Source: Amylibacter sp. (GTDB taxonomy: Bacteria > Pseudomonadota > Alphaproteobacteria > Rhodobacterales > Rhodobacteraceae). Taken from it: a stretch of 64,000 nt of DNA. The DNA lies in NCBI GenBank assembly GCA_021775355.1, contig JAJFHZ010000010.1, positions 1 to 64,000 of the forward strand. Reading direction: 5' to 3'. The notes below the pieces were generated by a model. It searched no databases and was not told the origin of the DNA. It saw only the letters and a list, made by a program, of their open reading frames with translations. The position numbers were made by a program, and so were the translations under genes. This document shows, one piece after another, positions 34,921 to 53,497 of this stretch. Each line of letters starts with the position of its first letter. Position 1 is the first letter of the stretch.

Positions 34921-34942
34921 CCTTGGTCCTTAAACCAAGGGA
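34921..34942 (+). promoter_or_regulatory. Hairpin covering the thiD ribosome binding site
   Basis: CCTTGGT (34921-34927) pairs with ACCAAGG (34934-34940) around CCTTAA. The 3' arm contains most of AAGGGA (34937-34942), the Shine-Dalgarno sequence seven bases before the thiD GTG. This is the likely expression platform: translation is blocked when the hairpin forms. Confidence 0.65.
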
Positions 34943-34949
34943 ATACACA

Positions 34950-35756
34950 GTGACGGCCATTGCTTTAACAATTGCAGGATCAGACAGCGGCGGCGGTGCC
35001 GGTATTCAGGCTGATCTGAAAGCATTCAGCGCACTTGGCGTGTACGGTGCCAGCGTGATCACGGCCATTACCGCGCAAAACACCCAAACCGTGACTGCCG
35101 TGCAAAAGGTGGCAACGAATGTGGTTGCCGCACAGATAAATGCGATTTTGGATGATTTGGCGGTAAATGCGATCAAGATCGGTATGCTGTCGTCGCCCGA
35201 AATCATTGCCACGGTCGCCACACAACTGAAAGATTGCTGCGCCCCGATTGTTCTGGATCCTGTGATGGTAGCCAAATCAGGTGATGCACTATTACAGCCC
35301 GAAGCGGCATCTACATTGATCACAGATCTTTTGCCCATCGCAACAGTCCTGACACCCAATTTGCCCGAAGCGGCCCGATTATTGGGTCAACCCGTTGCTG
35401 TCACAACCGATCAAATGCTGGTCCAGGGAACGGCATTGCTGGCTTTGGGCCCCAAAGCCGTATTGATGAAAGGCGGCCATGCAGACGGGCCATTTTGCAC
35501 TGACTTTCTTATCACTAAAGATAACCTCGTTGAACTGACAGCCCCGCGTATTGCAACCGGAAACACCCATGGCACCGGATGTACTTTATCCGCGTCCATC
35601 GCCGCAGGTCTGGCCAAAGGGCAGGGTTTAGAAAGTTCTGTGCGATACGCTCACAGCTATTTGCAAGGTGCCATTGCACAAGCGGACAAGCTAAACATCG
35701 GATCAGGCCACGGCCCCGTGCATCACTTTTATCAGGTTTGGAAAACACATGATTGA
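34950..35756 (+). CDS. thiD: Hydroxymethylpyrimidine/phosphomethylpyrimidine kinase ThiD
   Basis: A 268-residue ribokinase-fold enzyme phosphorylating HMP to HMP-P and HMP-PP. Family features: IAGSDSGGGAGIQADLKAF at the start, LDPVMVAKSGDALL, and the anion-hole region NTHGTGCTLSASIAAGLAKG with catalytic Asp equivalent replaced by the usual GTGC segment. GTG 34950 is the start: it follows AAGGGA at seven bases and opens directly into the conserved N-terminus. First gene behind the TPP riboswitch; overlaps thiO by 8 nt. Handles salvaged HMP delivered by ThiXYZ/TenA. Confidence 0.95.
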   Translation: MTAIALTIAGSDSGGGAGIQADLKAFSALGVYGASVITAITAQNTQTVTAVQKVATNVVAAQINAILDDLAVNAIKIGMLSSPEIIATVATQLKDCCAPIVLDPVMVAKSGDALLQPEAASTLITDLLPIATVLTPNLPEAARLLGQPVAVTTDQMLVQGTALLALGPKAVLMKGGHADGPFCTDFLITKDNLVELTAPRIATGNTHGTGCTLSASIAAGLAKGQGLESSVRYAHSYLQGAIAQADKLNIGSGHGPVHHFYQVWKTHD

Positions 35757-49296: not shown

Positions 49297-50700
49297 GTGA
49301 AGATTAATGGACTACTCATTCTAACAACAGCCGTAAACCTTGGGCTTGGCACAATCACCTTTGCACAATCATCACAAGTTTTGACCAAACAATATGATAC
49401 AGGCGGCGTTTATACCGGGACATTCAAGGATGGCCGCCAGCATGGGCAAGGCACATATGTTTTGCCGAATGGATATGAGTATTCAGGTATGTGGTTTGAA
49501 GGGCAAATTCAGGGCGAAGGCACCGCAAGATTTTCAAACGGTTCTTTTTATGAAGGTATGTTTCAGGCAGGCAAGCCCGAAGGTATGGGGAAGATCACAT
49601 TTGCCGATGGCGGGACTTATGTCGGGACATGGAAGAATGGTAAAATAGACGGAACCGGTATGGCGCGTTATGCCAATGGCGAGGTTTATGACGGCCAGTT
49701 CAAAGCGGCCAATCATCATGGTGTCGGCACCCTGATCAACGAAAACGGATATCGCTACGAAGGCGATTGGGTTGACGGCAAGAAAACCGGAAAGGCCAAG
49801 ATCACCTATCCCGATGGCGCAACTTACGAAGGTGATGTTCTTGACGGGAAACGGCACGGATCCGGCCTTGTGACCTTATCCGACAGCTCCACCTACGAAG
49901 GTGACTGGCAACAGGGGCAGATCACCGGGTCCGGCACCTTGGTTCTGGCCAATGGCGACAGCTACACGGGCGATATGCTTAAAGGCCAGAAAAACGGCCA
50001 AGGCAAACTGACCTTTGCCAATGGCAATATTTATACAGGCGGGTTCAGCAAAGGCCAACGTGACGGGGCGGGTACATTGGTACGTCAGGATGGCTACAAA
50101 TTTTCAGGCCATTGGGTTGCCGGAAAATTACAGGGCGAAGGCCAGATCACCTATCCAAACGGGTCACATTATGCGGGTATGGTAAAAGATGACCTGCCAG
50201 ACGGGAAAGGCAAAGTAACTTATGCGGATGGCGGCAGTTACGACGGCGACTGGATCAAGGGGGTTATACAGGGCAAAGGACTGGCAACCTATGCCAATGG
50301 CACGGTTTACGAGGGTGATTTCGATCAAGCCCGCAACCACGGACAGGGCAAAATCGTTTATCCGCAAGGCTTTACATATACAGGCACATGGGTGAACGGC
50401 ATTCGTGAAGGCAAAGGCATTGCCACGTTTGCCGACGGCAGTACCTATGACGGCATGTTCAAAGCGGGCAAACGCCACGGGATCGGCACACATTCGACTA
50501 ATGATGGTTTCGTCTATGAAGGCGCATGGGTTGACGGGCAAATGCACGGGGTTGGCCACGCAATTTATGCCAATGGCGACGATTACGTTGGAAGTTTCAC
50601 GAACGGTTTACGCGAAGGCCGGGGAACCATGACTTTTGCCGATGGTGAAATTCTCGACGGAATGTGGAAAGCCGGCGAAGCGGCCCTTGTGGCTGAATAA
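49297..50700 (+). CDS. Secreted MORN-repeat protein
   Basis: A 467-residue protein made of a signal peptide (about 1-23, cleavage near TFAQ) and about 19 tandem MORN repeats of 23 residues from residue 39 to the end. The consensus is Y-x-G-x-(W/F)-x-x-G-x-x-x-G-x-G-x-x-x-x-x-(N/D)-G; most units are intact and the last begins LDGMWKAG. MORN repeats form extended beta-hairpin ladders that bind lipids or proteins. Function is unknown; the length and regularity suggest recent repeat amplification. The short first ribosome site region is weak. Confidence 0.9.
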   Translation: MKINGLLILTTAVNLGLGTITFAQSSQVLTKQYDTGGVYTGTFKDGRQHGQGTYVLPNGYEYSGMWFEGQIQGEGTARFSNGSFYEGMFQAGKPEGMGKITFADGGTYVGTWKNGKIDGTGMARYANGEVYDGQFKAANHHGVGTLINENGYRYEGDWVDGKKTGKAKITYPDGATYEGDVLDGKRHGSGLVTLSDSSTYEGDWQQGQITGSGTLVLANGDSYTGDMLKGQKNGQGKLTFANGNIYTGGFSKGQRDGAGTLVRQDGYKFSGHWVAGKLQGEGQITYPNGSHYAGMVKDDLPDGKGKVTYADGGSYDGDWIKGVIQGKGLATYANGTVYEGDFDQARNHGQGKIVYPQGFTYTGTWVNGIREGKGIATFADGSTYDGMFKAGKRHGIGTHSTNDGFVYEGAWVDGQMHGVGHAIYANGDDYVGSFTNGLREGRGTMTFADGEILDGMWKAGEAALVAE

Positions 50701-51021: not shown

Positions 51022-51699
51022 TCACCAAACCGCCTGTTTCCCCGTCCAATTCAGGAAATGCCCTGTGTCACGGGGTGACAAGCTTTCGACAACATCCAAC
51101 AAATCCATCACGGCATCTTTCGGCAAGACGGATGTCTTGTCTTTCAGGTATTTGCGGGTCATGTCGGTTAGCACTGTACCGGGGTGATAGGCAATGCAAA
51201 TTGCTTTCGGGTTCTTATGTCCCAACTCGATCGCCGTGGTGCGCACAATCTGGTTCAACGCGGCTTTTGCGGCCCGATAAGACACCCACCCGCCCAAATA
51301 GTTTTCACCGATGGAACCGACACGCGATGATAACACAACAAAGATTGCACGGCGGGCTTTGGTTAATTTCGGGGCGAAATGCTTTAGCAATAACGCAGGG
51401 CCCAGCGCGTTGGTCCGGAACTGTTTTAACAGATGGTCGGTTGATATGTTCTGAATGGATTTTTCGGGGCGCAAACCGTCCACCTCTAGCGCGCCTGTGG
51501 CGACCACAATCAAATCCAGCCCGCCTTTGATGGTTTTGGCATGATGGCTGACACTATCCTCGTCGGTAATATCCAACCCATCCGTGCGGCGCGACAAGGT
51601 CAAAACCTTGTAGCCACGTGCGACGCATAATGCGGCCAGAGCCGAGCCAATGCCGCCCGATGCCCCGATGATCAGGGCAGTTTTCGGTTTTTTGGTCAT
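51022..51699 (-). CDS. SDR family oxidoreductase
   Basis: A 225-residue short-chain dehydrogenase. Cofactor motif IIGASGGIGSAL near the N-terminus, and catalytic YxxxK in VSYRAAKAALNQ (about residues 142-147) with the preceding Ser in LSSRVGSIG. The short size and the layout resemble CsgA-like SDRs. Substrate unknown. It is divergent from leuA; the 240-bp gap holds the leu leader. Confidence 0.87.
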   Translation of the reverse strand: MTKKPKTALIIGASGGIGSALAALCVARGYKVLTLSRRTDGLDITDEDSVSHHAKTIKGGLDLIVVATGALEVDGLRPEKSIQNISTDHLLKQFRTNALGPALLLKHFAPKLTKARRAIFVVLSSRVGSIGENYLGGWVSYRAAKAALNQIVRTTAIELGHKNPKAICIAYHPGTVLTDMTRKYLKDKTSVLPKDAVMDLLDVVESLSPRDTGHFLNWTGKQAVW

Positions 51700-51772
51700 T
51701 GTGCAAGATTACTCTGCAAACAGTAAGTGTCAAAGCCCTTTTCTTTTTTCCAATTCGTCGTATAAAGCAAGC

Positions 51773-51856
51773 ATGGTAAAAAACGCGCATATAATTTCCG
51801 GAACGGGCTCTTTGGGCCTGACCAGCCGTGCGCTTCTTCTACTTAGCTGCCTCTGA
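51773..51856 (+). CDS. leuL: leuA leader peptide (27 aa)
   Basis: ATG at 51773 to TGA at 51856 encodes 27 residues with seven Leu codons, four of them consecutive (CTT CTT CTA CTT at 51833-51844) and one just before the stop. It lies about 90 bases before leuA and overlaps alternative RNA hairpins. This is the composition expected for a leucine attenuator. No strong ribosome site is seen upstream of the ATG. Confidence 0.75.
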   Translation: MVKNAHIISGTGSLGLTSRALLLLSCL

Positions 51857-51913
51857 GCGTGCCTTTTCTTGGGCGCGGGCGCTCAGGGGGTGACAAACGC
51901 GCCGCAGACTTTT
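51828..51913 (+). promoter_or_regulatory. Leucine attenuator with alternative stems
   Basis: Three mutually exclusive pairings are visible. Stem 1:2 is GTGCGCT (51828-51834) with AGCGTGC (51856-51862), enclosing the Leu codons. Stem 2:3 is TGAGCG (51854-51859) with CGCTCA (51880-51885). Stem 3:4 is GGCGCG (51872-51877) with CGCGCC (51898-51903), followed by a short TTTT at 51910-51913 as terminator. Ribosome stalling at Leu codons would break 1:2, allow 2:3 and prevent 3:4. Confidence 0.65.
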
Positions 51914-51943
51914 AAAGCAAGCTAAGACAAAAGAGATACCGAT

Positions 51944-53497
51944 ATGACTGATAGTTCTACAACAAAACAAGACCGCGTCTTGATTTTCGACACCACGTTG
52001 CGTGACGGCGAACAAAGCCCGGGTGCAACCATGAGCCATAATGAAAAGCTGGAAATCGCCGAGCTGCTGGATGAAATGGGTGTGGACATCATCGAAGCGG
52101 GTTTCCCGATTGCCAGCGAGGGTGATTTTGCCGCTGTCAGTGCGATTGCCGCACAAGCCAAGAACGCGGTAATCTGCGGGTTAAGCCGCGCGATTATCAA
52201 AGATATTGATCGTTGCTGGGAAGCTGTGAAACATGCGGCGCGACCGCGTATTCATACATTCATCGGCACCAGTCCGCAGCACCGTGCCATTCCAGATATG
52301 ACCAAAGACGAGATGATCGTGCGTATTCACGACACGGTCAGCCACGCGCGCAACCTGTGTGACAATGTGCAATGGTCGGCAATGGATGCCACCCGCACGG
52401 AACCCGATTATCTGTGCCGCACAGTAGAAACCGCGATTCTGGCGGGGGCAACGACAATCAATATCCCCGACACTGTGGGCTTTACCGCGCCGCGCGAAAG
52501 CGCCGATCTGATCGAGATGCTGATCAATAATGTTCTGGGTGCCGATGCGGTGACTTTCGCTACCCATTGCCACAATGATCTGGGTATGGCGACGGCAAAC
52601 GCACTTGCAGCTGTTGAAGGGGGTGCGCGGCAAATCGAATGTACGATCAACGGTTTGGGTGAGCGCGCGGGTAACACAGCCCTTGAAGAGGTCGTGATGG
52701 CCTTGCGCGTACGCAATGACATAATGCCGTTTCATACGGATATCGATACCACCAAAATCATGAACATCAGCCGCCGTGTGGCAACGGTTTCGGGCTTTGC
52801 GGTGCAGAACAACAAAGCGATTGTCGGCAAAAACGCCTTTGCCCACGAAAGCGGCATTCATCAGGACGGCATGCTGAAATCGGCTGACACGTTCGAGATT
52901 ATGCGCCCACAGGACATAGGCCTGAAAGAAACCAATCTGGTGATGGGTAAACATTCGGGGCGTGCGGCGTTGCGATCCAAGTTGGCCGATCTGGGCTATG
53001 ACTTGGGTGACAATCAGCTAAAGGACGTGTTCGTGCGGTTCAAGGCTTTGGCCGATCGCAAGAAGGAAGTCTATGATGACGATCTGATCGCATTGGTGTC
53101 CGATGAAGGCACGCATCAGGCCTATGATTATCTGCAAGTAAAGTTCCTGCGGGTGATTTGCGGCACCGAAGCCCCCCAATCTGCAGATCTGACACTGTCC
53201 ATAGACGGGGTAGATCATCAGGTAACAGCCACGGGCGACGGACCTGTGGATGCAGTTTTCAATGCCGTTAAAGCGTTGTTCCCGCATGATGCGCGTTTAG
53301 CCGTATATCAGGTACATGCAGTTACCGAAGGCACTGACGCACAGGCGACCGTGAGCGTGCGCATGGAAGAAAACGGTAAAATCGTAAATGGGCAATCTGC
53401 GGATACCGATACGGTTGTGGCATCCGCCAAGGCTTATGTTAATGCGTTGAACAAGCTGATGGTAAGACGTGAAAAAACGGCGCCCGAGGCAGAATAA
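51944..53497 (+). CDS. leuA: 2-isopropylmalate synthase
   Basis: A 517-residue enzyme committing 2-oxoisovalerate and acetyl-CoA to leucine synthesis. The TIM-barrel catalytic domain begins FDTTLRDGEQSPGATM and carries metal ligands in THCHNDLGMATAN; HESGIHQDGMLK marks the linker. The C-terminal leucine-binding regulatory domain spans about residues 380-500. The length matches the family. Transcription is probably controlled by the leader attenuator and activity by leucine feedback. Confidence 0.95.
   Translation: MTDSSTTKQDRVLIFDTTLRDGEQSPGATMSHNEKLEIAELLDEMGVDIIEAGFPIASEGDFAAVSAIAAQAKNAVICGLSRAIIKDIDRCWEAVKHAARPRIHTFIGTSPQHRAIPDMTKDEMIVRIHDTVSHARNLCDNVQWSAMDATRTEPDYLCRTVETAILAGATTINIPDTVGFTAPRESADLIEMLINNVLGADAVTFATHCHNDLGMATANALAAVEGGARQIECTINGLGERAGNTALEEVVMALRVRNDIMPFHTDIDTTKIMNISRRVATVSGFAVQNNKAIVGKNAFAHESGIHQDGMLKSADTFEIMRPQDIGLKETNLVMGKHSGRAALRSKLADLGYDLGDNQLKDVFVRFKALADRKKEVYDDDLIALVSDEGTHQAYDYLQVKFLRVICGTEAPQSADLTLSIDGVDHQVTATGDGPVDAVFNAVKALFPHDARLAVYQVHAVTEGTDAQATVSVRMEENGKIVNGQSADTDTVVASAKAYVNALNKLMVRREKTAPEAE

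Follow-up and report, generated by a model that had tools for sequence, protein, structure and literature searches.

In this study, we found that the leuA gene of Amylibacter sp. is preceded by a Leu-rich leader whose last control codons can pair with the leuA start region. On the basis of computation, we consider it probable, at roughly 0.7, that this element is a ribosome-operated translational attenuator of leuA with LEU-element architecture. The DNA that was analysed is a stretch of 64,000 nucleotides (contig JAJFHZ010000010.1), which is called the window here in its whole length, and the features of the element are given in Table 1. The computation supports the leader, the helices S1, S2 and A, the lack of a U-tract and the promoter geometry. 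An earlier note on this DNA, made from the sequence alone, had assumed a textbook terminator, and this guess is now replaced by a different switch at nearly every leuA locus of the family that was examined.

The direction of control, the roles of S2 and of the upper stem U, and 30S binding as the controlled step are the parts that we infer. A leaderless transcript would begin at the leader ATG, on the presumption of leaderless initiation. When leucine is ample, the ribosomes would translate through the four Leu codons and come off at the TGA stop codon, after which the leader would fold with S1 at the stop codon, and the S1 loop would enter either the S2 pseudoknot or stem U. The freed codons of the fourth Leu and the following Ser (Leu4-Ser) would pair with A' beside the leuA ribosome site, or on this site in other lineages, and would hinder initiation. 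When leucine is scarce, a ribosome stalled on the Leu codons would occupy the 5' arm of helix A; this would leave A' and the ribosome-binding site open and allow translation of leuA. In this way the sensor codons would double as the repressing strand.

Table 1. Features of the leader element and its surroundings, in positions of the window.
Feature	Position	Strand	Basis
-35-like CTTTTC	51738..51743	+	position of the conserved CTTTnC of relatives (consensus from an alignment of 73 relatives), 17 nt before the -10 box
-10 box TATAAA, 6 nt upstream of the leader start codon	51761..51766	+	TATAAT-like hexamer in relatives
Leu-rich leader ORF, 27 codons, probably leaderless	51773..51856	+	ORF and comparison with relatives
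Four control Leu codons CTT CTT CTA CTT (putative sensor), codons 21-24	51833..51844	+	Leu run conserved
Helix A, 5' arm, CTTAGCT (Leu4-Ser codons and one base)	51842..51848	+	z 13.6; fold probability
Helix S1, 5' arm (segment 2 of the earlier note; includes the leader stop)	51850..51859	+	conserved pairing, covariation
Upper stem U, 5' arm (partner 51872-51875; alternative to S2)	51860..51863	+	pairing kept in relatives
Helix S2, 5' arm, within the S1 loop (pseudoknot)	51872..51877	+	covariation
Helix S1, 3' arm (segment 3)	51880..51889	+	conserved pairing, covariation
Helix S2, 3' arm (segment 4 of the earlier note)	51898..51903	+	covariation
Helix A, 3' arm (A'; AGCTAAG), 17 nt upstream of the leuA start codon	51920..51926	+	complementarity, covariation, fold
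leuA ribosome-binding site AAGAGA	51931..51936	+	by eye
leuA, 2-isopropylmalate synthase, putative regulated gene	51944..53497	+	Pfam HMGL-like, HCS_D2, LeuA_dimer

The Leu-rich leader and its start site

The leader peptide, MVKNAHIISGTGSLGLTSRALLLLSCL, ends at a TGA stop codon upstream of leuA and carries Leu at codons 14, 16, 21-24 and 27, which makes seven in total with four consecutive. Such a leader had been noticed in the earlier note, and both the sequence and the relatives confirmed it. The upstream regions of leuA were taken from 148 related genomes that were searched (30 loci, then 78 regions) and from 80 named contigs; 4 of the 188 loci had no leuA motif and were dropped, leaving 184. 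A Leu-rich leader was detected by an automatic rule in 147 of the 184 loci, reduced to 137 by a redundancy filter (identity over 90%). The covariance model R1, described below, found the element in 28 of the 37 loci that failed this rule (18/20 in the first batch, the exceptions being L096 and L158, and 10/17 in the second). A few loci had been given a wrong leuA start; L030, L111, L138 and L152 look truncated.

A comparison of these regions showed that the Leu run and the reading frame are conserved among the relatives. The C-terminal forms of the leader include LLLLSRL and LLLLSCL, with LLLLSCP outside the family. For Leu4, 110 of 112 relatives use CTT or CTA, although these two codons together account for 8.7% of the Leu codons in their leuA genes.

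No Shine-Dalgarno (SD) sequence was seen before the leader in the window, which agrees with the caveat of the earlier note that a strong ribosome site is missing there, and the geometry of a leaderless start would explain this absence. Among the 77 leaders with a single possible ATG, 63 have a TATAAT-like hexamer (5/6 or better) that ends 6-8 nt upstream of it, compared with 0 of 113 leuA ATGs and 2.0% of the 5723 ATGs in the loci. SD-like words preceded 1 of the 77 leaders, against 40 of the 113 leuA starts and 13% of ATGs overall. The other 48 of the 125 leaders had more than one possible ATG and were set aside. A generic sigma-70 scan found no promoter at the leader; its -10 rule wants a T at the last position, where the TATAAA of the window has an A. 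Our comparison of sequences suggests that the leader ORF is probably leaderless, with a transcript that starts at its ATG, and the transcription start is predicted at or beside 51773.

By eye, the 10-mer TAAAGCAAGC was seen twice in this region, at 51763-51772 just before the leader ATG and at 51913-51922, where it runs into A'.

Pairing of the Leu codons and the helices at the stop codon

The pairings listed in the earlier note did not include helix A. For the analysis of pairing, 122 loci were kept by a spacing of 85-175 nt (L124 was removed by hand), and the permutation tests used the 120 of them with at least 8 S1 pairs. The cognate arms of helix A scored 16.4 compared with 13.4 for permuted arms (sd 0.22, z 13.6, n = 120), which was above all 5000 permutations. 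When arms were swapped with the nearest relative, 89 loci were better, 16 worse and 15 equal. A perfect 6-nt complement of Leu4-Ser was present downstream in 50 of the 122 loci, the remaining 72 being without it, and the controls gave 0 (reversed), 2 (unreversed complement) and 0 (same-sense). In only 39 of the 122 loci did the cognate region rank within the top tenth.

Of the 50 loci that could be scored, 37 have a synonymous wobble base in the third Leu codon of the run (Leu3) that makes a Watson-Crick pair with the next A' base (A-T 9/11, C-G 10/14, G-C 2/3, T-A 16/22), with a chi-square p of 3e-9 that is not corrected for relatedness among the loci. It suggests that codons may be both sensor and repressing strand, which becomes visible as covariation at a synonymous site. 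The whole of helix A is replaced in some loci, for example by TCCTAAGCC/GGCTTAGGA in L061 and by TTCTTACGCT/AGCGTAAGAA in L073. A tree-based test of independent pairs on 43 loci went in the right direction for helix A, with at most 5 pairs and no power.

In the window, A' adjoins the leuA ribosome site on its 5' side, and reading by eye placed it 5' of the SD, not on it, in many Rhodobacteraceae as well. The fold of the window gave helix A a probability of 0.99-1.0 for 51842-51847 and 0.57 for 51848, and it also predicted pairing of 51932-51934 of the leuA ribosome site with the Leu bases 51835-51837 (P about 0.55). Direct pairing of Leu1-3 with the SD showed no significant covariation in Rhodobacteraceae (z 1.6, n = 101). 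A conserved helix between the Leu codons and the ribosome-binding region of leuA points to control of translation.

Five loci of the window's genus (L012, L014, L017, L018 and L021) have the leader stop about 190 nt before the leuA codons for DTTLRDGEQ, which exceeds the usual genus spacing of 110-145 nt. Their enlarged spacer contains an AT-rich stretch, and helix A is short or unclear.

The earlier note had described three pairings, namely 51828-51834 with 51856-51862 (1:2), 51854-51859 with 51880-51885 (2:3) and 51872-51877 with 51898-51903 (3:4), and all of them are present in the window. The pairing 2:3 turned out to be part of the longer 10-bp helix S1. All 10 pairs of S1 are intact in 105 of the 122 loci and 97.8% of cells are paired, and the proposed covariation check supported S1 (z 13.4 for cognate against permuted arms) and the 6 bp of S2, which is the pairing 3:4 (z 10.9; nearest-relative swap 63 better, 16 worse, 41 equal). 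A pairing that begins at the leader stop codon had seemed an unusual detail, and it makes sense now that the TGA, which is the stop codon in 111 of 112 relatives, is found inside S1. The three pairings had also been called mutually exclusive. This holds for 1:2 and 2:3, which overlap at 51856-51859, but not for 2:3 and 3:4, which are disjoint.

Judged from the pairing pattern, the crossing helices S1 and S2 have the topology of an H-type pseudoknot, and we suggest that they could coexist in this form. The gap between the 5' arm of S2 and the 3' arm of S1 is 0-4 nt in 113 of the 122 loci. Stem U, in which 95.1% of cells are paired (z 5.3, cognate against permuted), competes with S2 for 51872-51875. 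The window fold contained stem U at 51861-51863 together with helix A, and not S2; the folding program cannot model pseudoknots.

On the other hand, the pairing 1:2, which has 7 bp with two G-U, was not clearly supported, and its reality in the family is regarded as unproven. Its z was 1.6 (cognate against permuted), and its nearest-relative swap gave 58 better and 23 worse (42 and 15 in a second version) with a mean gain of 0.4, compared with 2.4 for helix A. At this place, 43 of 120 loci had helices of at least 6 bp, where shuffles gave about 22.

The free leader of the window folded into helix A, S1 and U at -39.4 kcal/mol. We also carried out the folding with a stalled ribosome that had been proposed in the earlier note. 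Masking of the Leu codons removed helix A, and the mean unpaired probability of leuA from -26 to +3 rose from 0.39 to 0.72 in the window. Among the 101 loci with the leuA ATG 62-110 nt after the leader stop, this mean increased from 0.52 to 0.64, and with a shift of more than 0.05 the start region was more open in 71 loci and less open in 6. A ribosome placed at the stop codon also opened the leuA start region (mean 0.62), indicating that the off state requires that this ribosome has gone.

Alternatives to translational control

The T-run of the window, TTTT at 51910-51913, had been called weak and unusual in the earlier note; it is four T's long and lies six nt past the 3:4 stem. Four consecutive T's within 12 nt after S2 were limited to 2 of 122 loci, of which the window is one, and five consecutive T's anywhere between the leader stop and leuA were found in 0 of 113 loci. 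Runs of at least four T's beyond 40 nt after the stop occurred in 9 of 113 loci, and a terminator scan of 51690-51990 gave none on the + strand.

Rho-dependent termination would agree with the missing U-tract. In this case, the leader ribosome, stalled or released, would hide or expose unstructured Rho-loading RNA before leuA, and a role of Rho in other leaders that lack a terminator, those of actinobacterial cys operons, is suggested in the passages of PMC1262725 cited here. A covarying helix between Leu codons and A' at the start of the next gene is, however, not predicted by such a mechanism, and we consider it unlikely.

Classical transcription attenuation, in which 1:2 is the protector, 2:3 the antiterminator and 3:4 the intrinsic terminator, was the logic read from the window in the earlier note. 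A Leu leader before leuA, the conserved S1 and S2, the TTTT of the window and some 1:2 signal in the swaps and in the helix counts are what one would expect from it. This logic did not hold among the relatives: the U-tract is rare, 1:2 is weak, the disjoint 2:3 and 3:4 leave no segment common to an antiterminator and a terminator, and only stem U competes with S2. Moreover, classical attenuation leaves helix A, which can form only once the polymerase has passed, unexplained. It is thus regarded as very unlikely.

A binding site for a trans-acting protein with an incidental peptide would fit a compact conserved element with nearly invariant bases, but it is highly improbable, as the Leu run and its frame are conserved, the promoter stands in a fixed position relative to the start codon, and Leu4 uses rare codons, which pairing explains too.

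In the enterobacterial leu attenuator, which has the Rfam name Leu_leader, the leuL leader with its Leu run lies before leuA and an intrinsic terminator is used. The translational attenuator proposed here resembles it in the Leu run of a leader before leuA and differs from it in having no U-tract and no Rfam match at the element. Attenuators in general use an intrinsic terminator, according to the passage of PMC6123439 cited here. In Sinorhizobium meliloti, the cited parts of PMC7298713 and PMC10117765 report that the trpL leader peptide is encoded on a leaderless transcript that starts at the AUG, and that this system works by transcription termination, releases an sRNA and senses Trp. Both are alphaproteobacterial leader peptides on leaderless transcripts, which is a prediction in our case, whereas we propose control of translation.

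In translation attenuators of the erm type, which respond to antibiotics, a ribosome that stalls in the leader frees the start region of the gene that follows. A stalled leader ribosome would likewise free the next start region here; unlike in the erm type, amino-acid supply would be sensed, and the control codons themselves would form the pairing strand.

Distribution of the element and its likeness to the LEU element

The covariance model R1 was made from 96 relatives, including the window. From the relatives, 11 loci outside the family type were removed by hand, leaving 113, of which 105 were within 110 nt, and loci that were more than 85% identical or longer than 100 nt were then dropped. 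The element that R1 describes is compact and has nearly invariant bases. In the genome of the window, R1 gave a single match at 51833-51915 (73.1 bits, E 3.4e-16).

In the family, R1 matched 85 of 86 leuA loci, the exception being L158. The model had been built with 45 of these 86, and 40 of the 41 others matched, some of them close to members. The 86 loci came from 91 family genomes; in the other five (G013, G019, G020, G025 and G065), leuA was seen only as fragments or weak matches. Among the 75 named contigs L031-L105, of which 51 were members of R1, the model matched 73 and missed L096 and L101, the latter being without upstream DNA. L158 and L096 are leuA loci that have upstream DNA and no match to the element.

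The element is also present in other alphaproteobacterial families. R1 matched 19 of 27 loci from other parts of the class, at least 25 of 385 genomes in a sample of the class and at least 33 of 299 in a sample of the phylum, the last two counts being lower bounds obtained with strict filters. Of the 33 genomes, 32 are Alphaproteobacteria, and the single match outside them (E 0.005) was taken as chance. In 40 loci outside the family, the cognate Leu run and start region paired better than permuted ones (z 4.9). L172 and L173 had been dropped from this set by score and 5 duplicates removed; L172 later matched R1. A helix of at least 7 bp that covers at least 3 nt of an SD word was found in 12 of the 40 loci, for example TGGTCCTTCG/CGAAGGACCA in L215 and TCCTTCGACT/AGTCGAAGGA in L202, and the best helix of any length touched an SD word in only 21 of the 40. 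A further example of a start-region arm is CGAAGGAC in L170.

In nine loci (L007, L033, L054, L059, L091, L147, L155, L192 and L195) another gene lies between the element and leuA, and R1 placed the element upstream of this gene in all nine. In the five sequences inspected (L007, L033, L059, L147 and L192), A' is located just before the start of the intervening gene. The position of A' thus moves with whichever start site comes next, which is what translation initiation as the target would predict. The small intervening gene encodes a cupin in L007 (Pfam Cupin_2), and the other eight looked alike by eye; these loci are scattered over Rhodobacteraceae and include one from the genus of the window.

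Seliverstov et al. (2005, PMC1262725) described the LEU element upstream of leuA in Actinobacteria and, in the passages cited here, favoured a binding protein for it. The same passages state that mutations in the leuA leader of S. coelicolor had effects not consistent with classical attenuation, and conclude that mutations of the Leu codons do not influence regulation, which speaks against our translational attenuator.

The element reported here is like the LEU element, as far as these passages describe it, in its leader peptide with a run of Leu codons before leuA and in its predicted pseudoknot. The pseudoknot is supported here in that S1 and S2 covary and cross, and the alternative hairpin is seen in stem U with helix A. 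As to the LEU base stem between the Leu run and the SD of leuA, the 12 of 40 outside loci mentioned above have the SD covered, and helix A lies 5' of it in the window. Our element is unlike the LEU element so described in belonging to another phylum, in the leader stop that lies inside S1 and in the base stem that is placed 5' of the SD in the window. The architecture thus appears to match that of the actinobacterial LEU element in outline, a likeness by description and not by sequence.

LeuL1 of S. lividans, MRFGLLLLSCRGEGL, is given as leaderless and without a typical terminator in the part of PMC8079986 cited here, and it has LLLLSC in common with the window leader. Of the Streptomyces matches in a plasmid collection, the two listed were citramalate synthases, and no actinobacterial leuA loci were found in the control genomes. 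We found no description of an alphaproteobacterial LEU-type element in the titles, abstracts and passages searched. Two papers that might well contain one, Vitreschak et al. (2004) and Lopatovskaya et al. (2010), were covered through reference lists only.

We tentatively suggest, at somewhat less than even odds, that the LEU element is a single RNA class common to Alphaproteobacteria and Actinobacteria. In this class, the sensing codons would be the strand that blocks the next ribosome site, and the pseudoknot at the stop codon may brake the ribosome on the Leu codons, with neither a terminator nor a protein. The workings of the actinobacterial LEU element were left open in 2005, and an alphaproteobacterial element of the same design makes them testable in laboratory strains that are tractable.

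A search with Rfam gave no meaningful match at the leader element. Its sole match in the window was a TPP riboswitch (RF00059, 34790-34894, 64.5 bits), which is located just upstream of the ORF 34923-35756, a thiD-type kinase by eye. In addition, the window encodes at 49297-50700 a protein of 467 aa with 11 matches to MORN repeats (Pfam).
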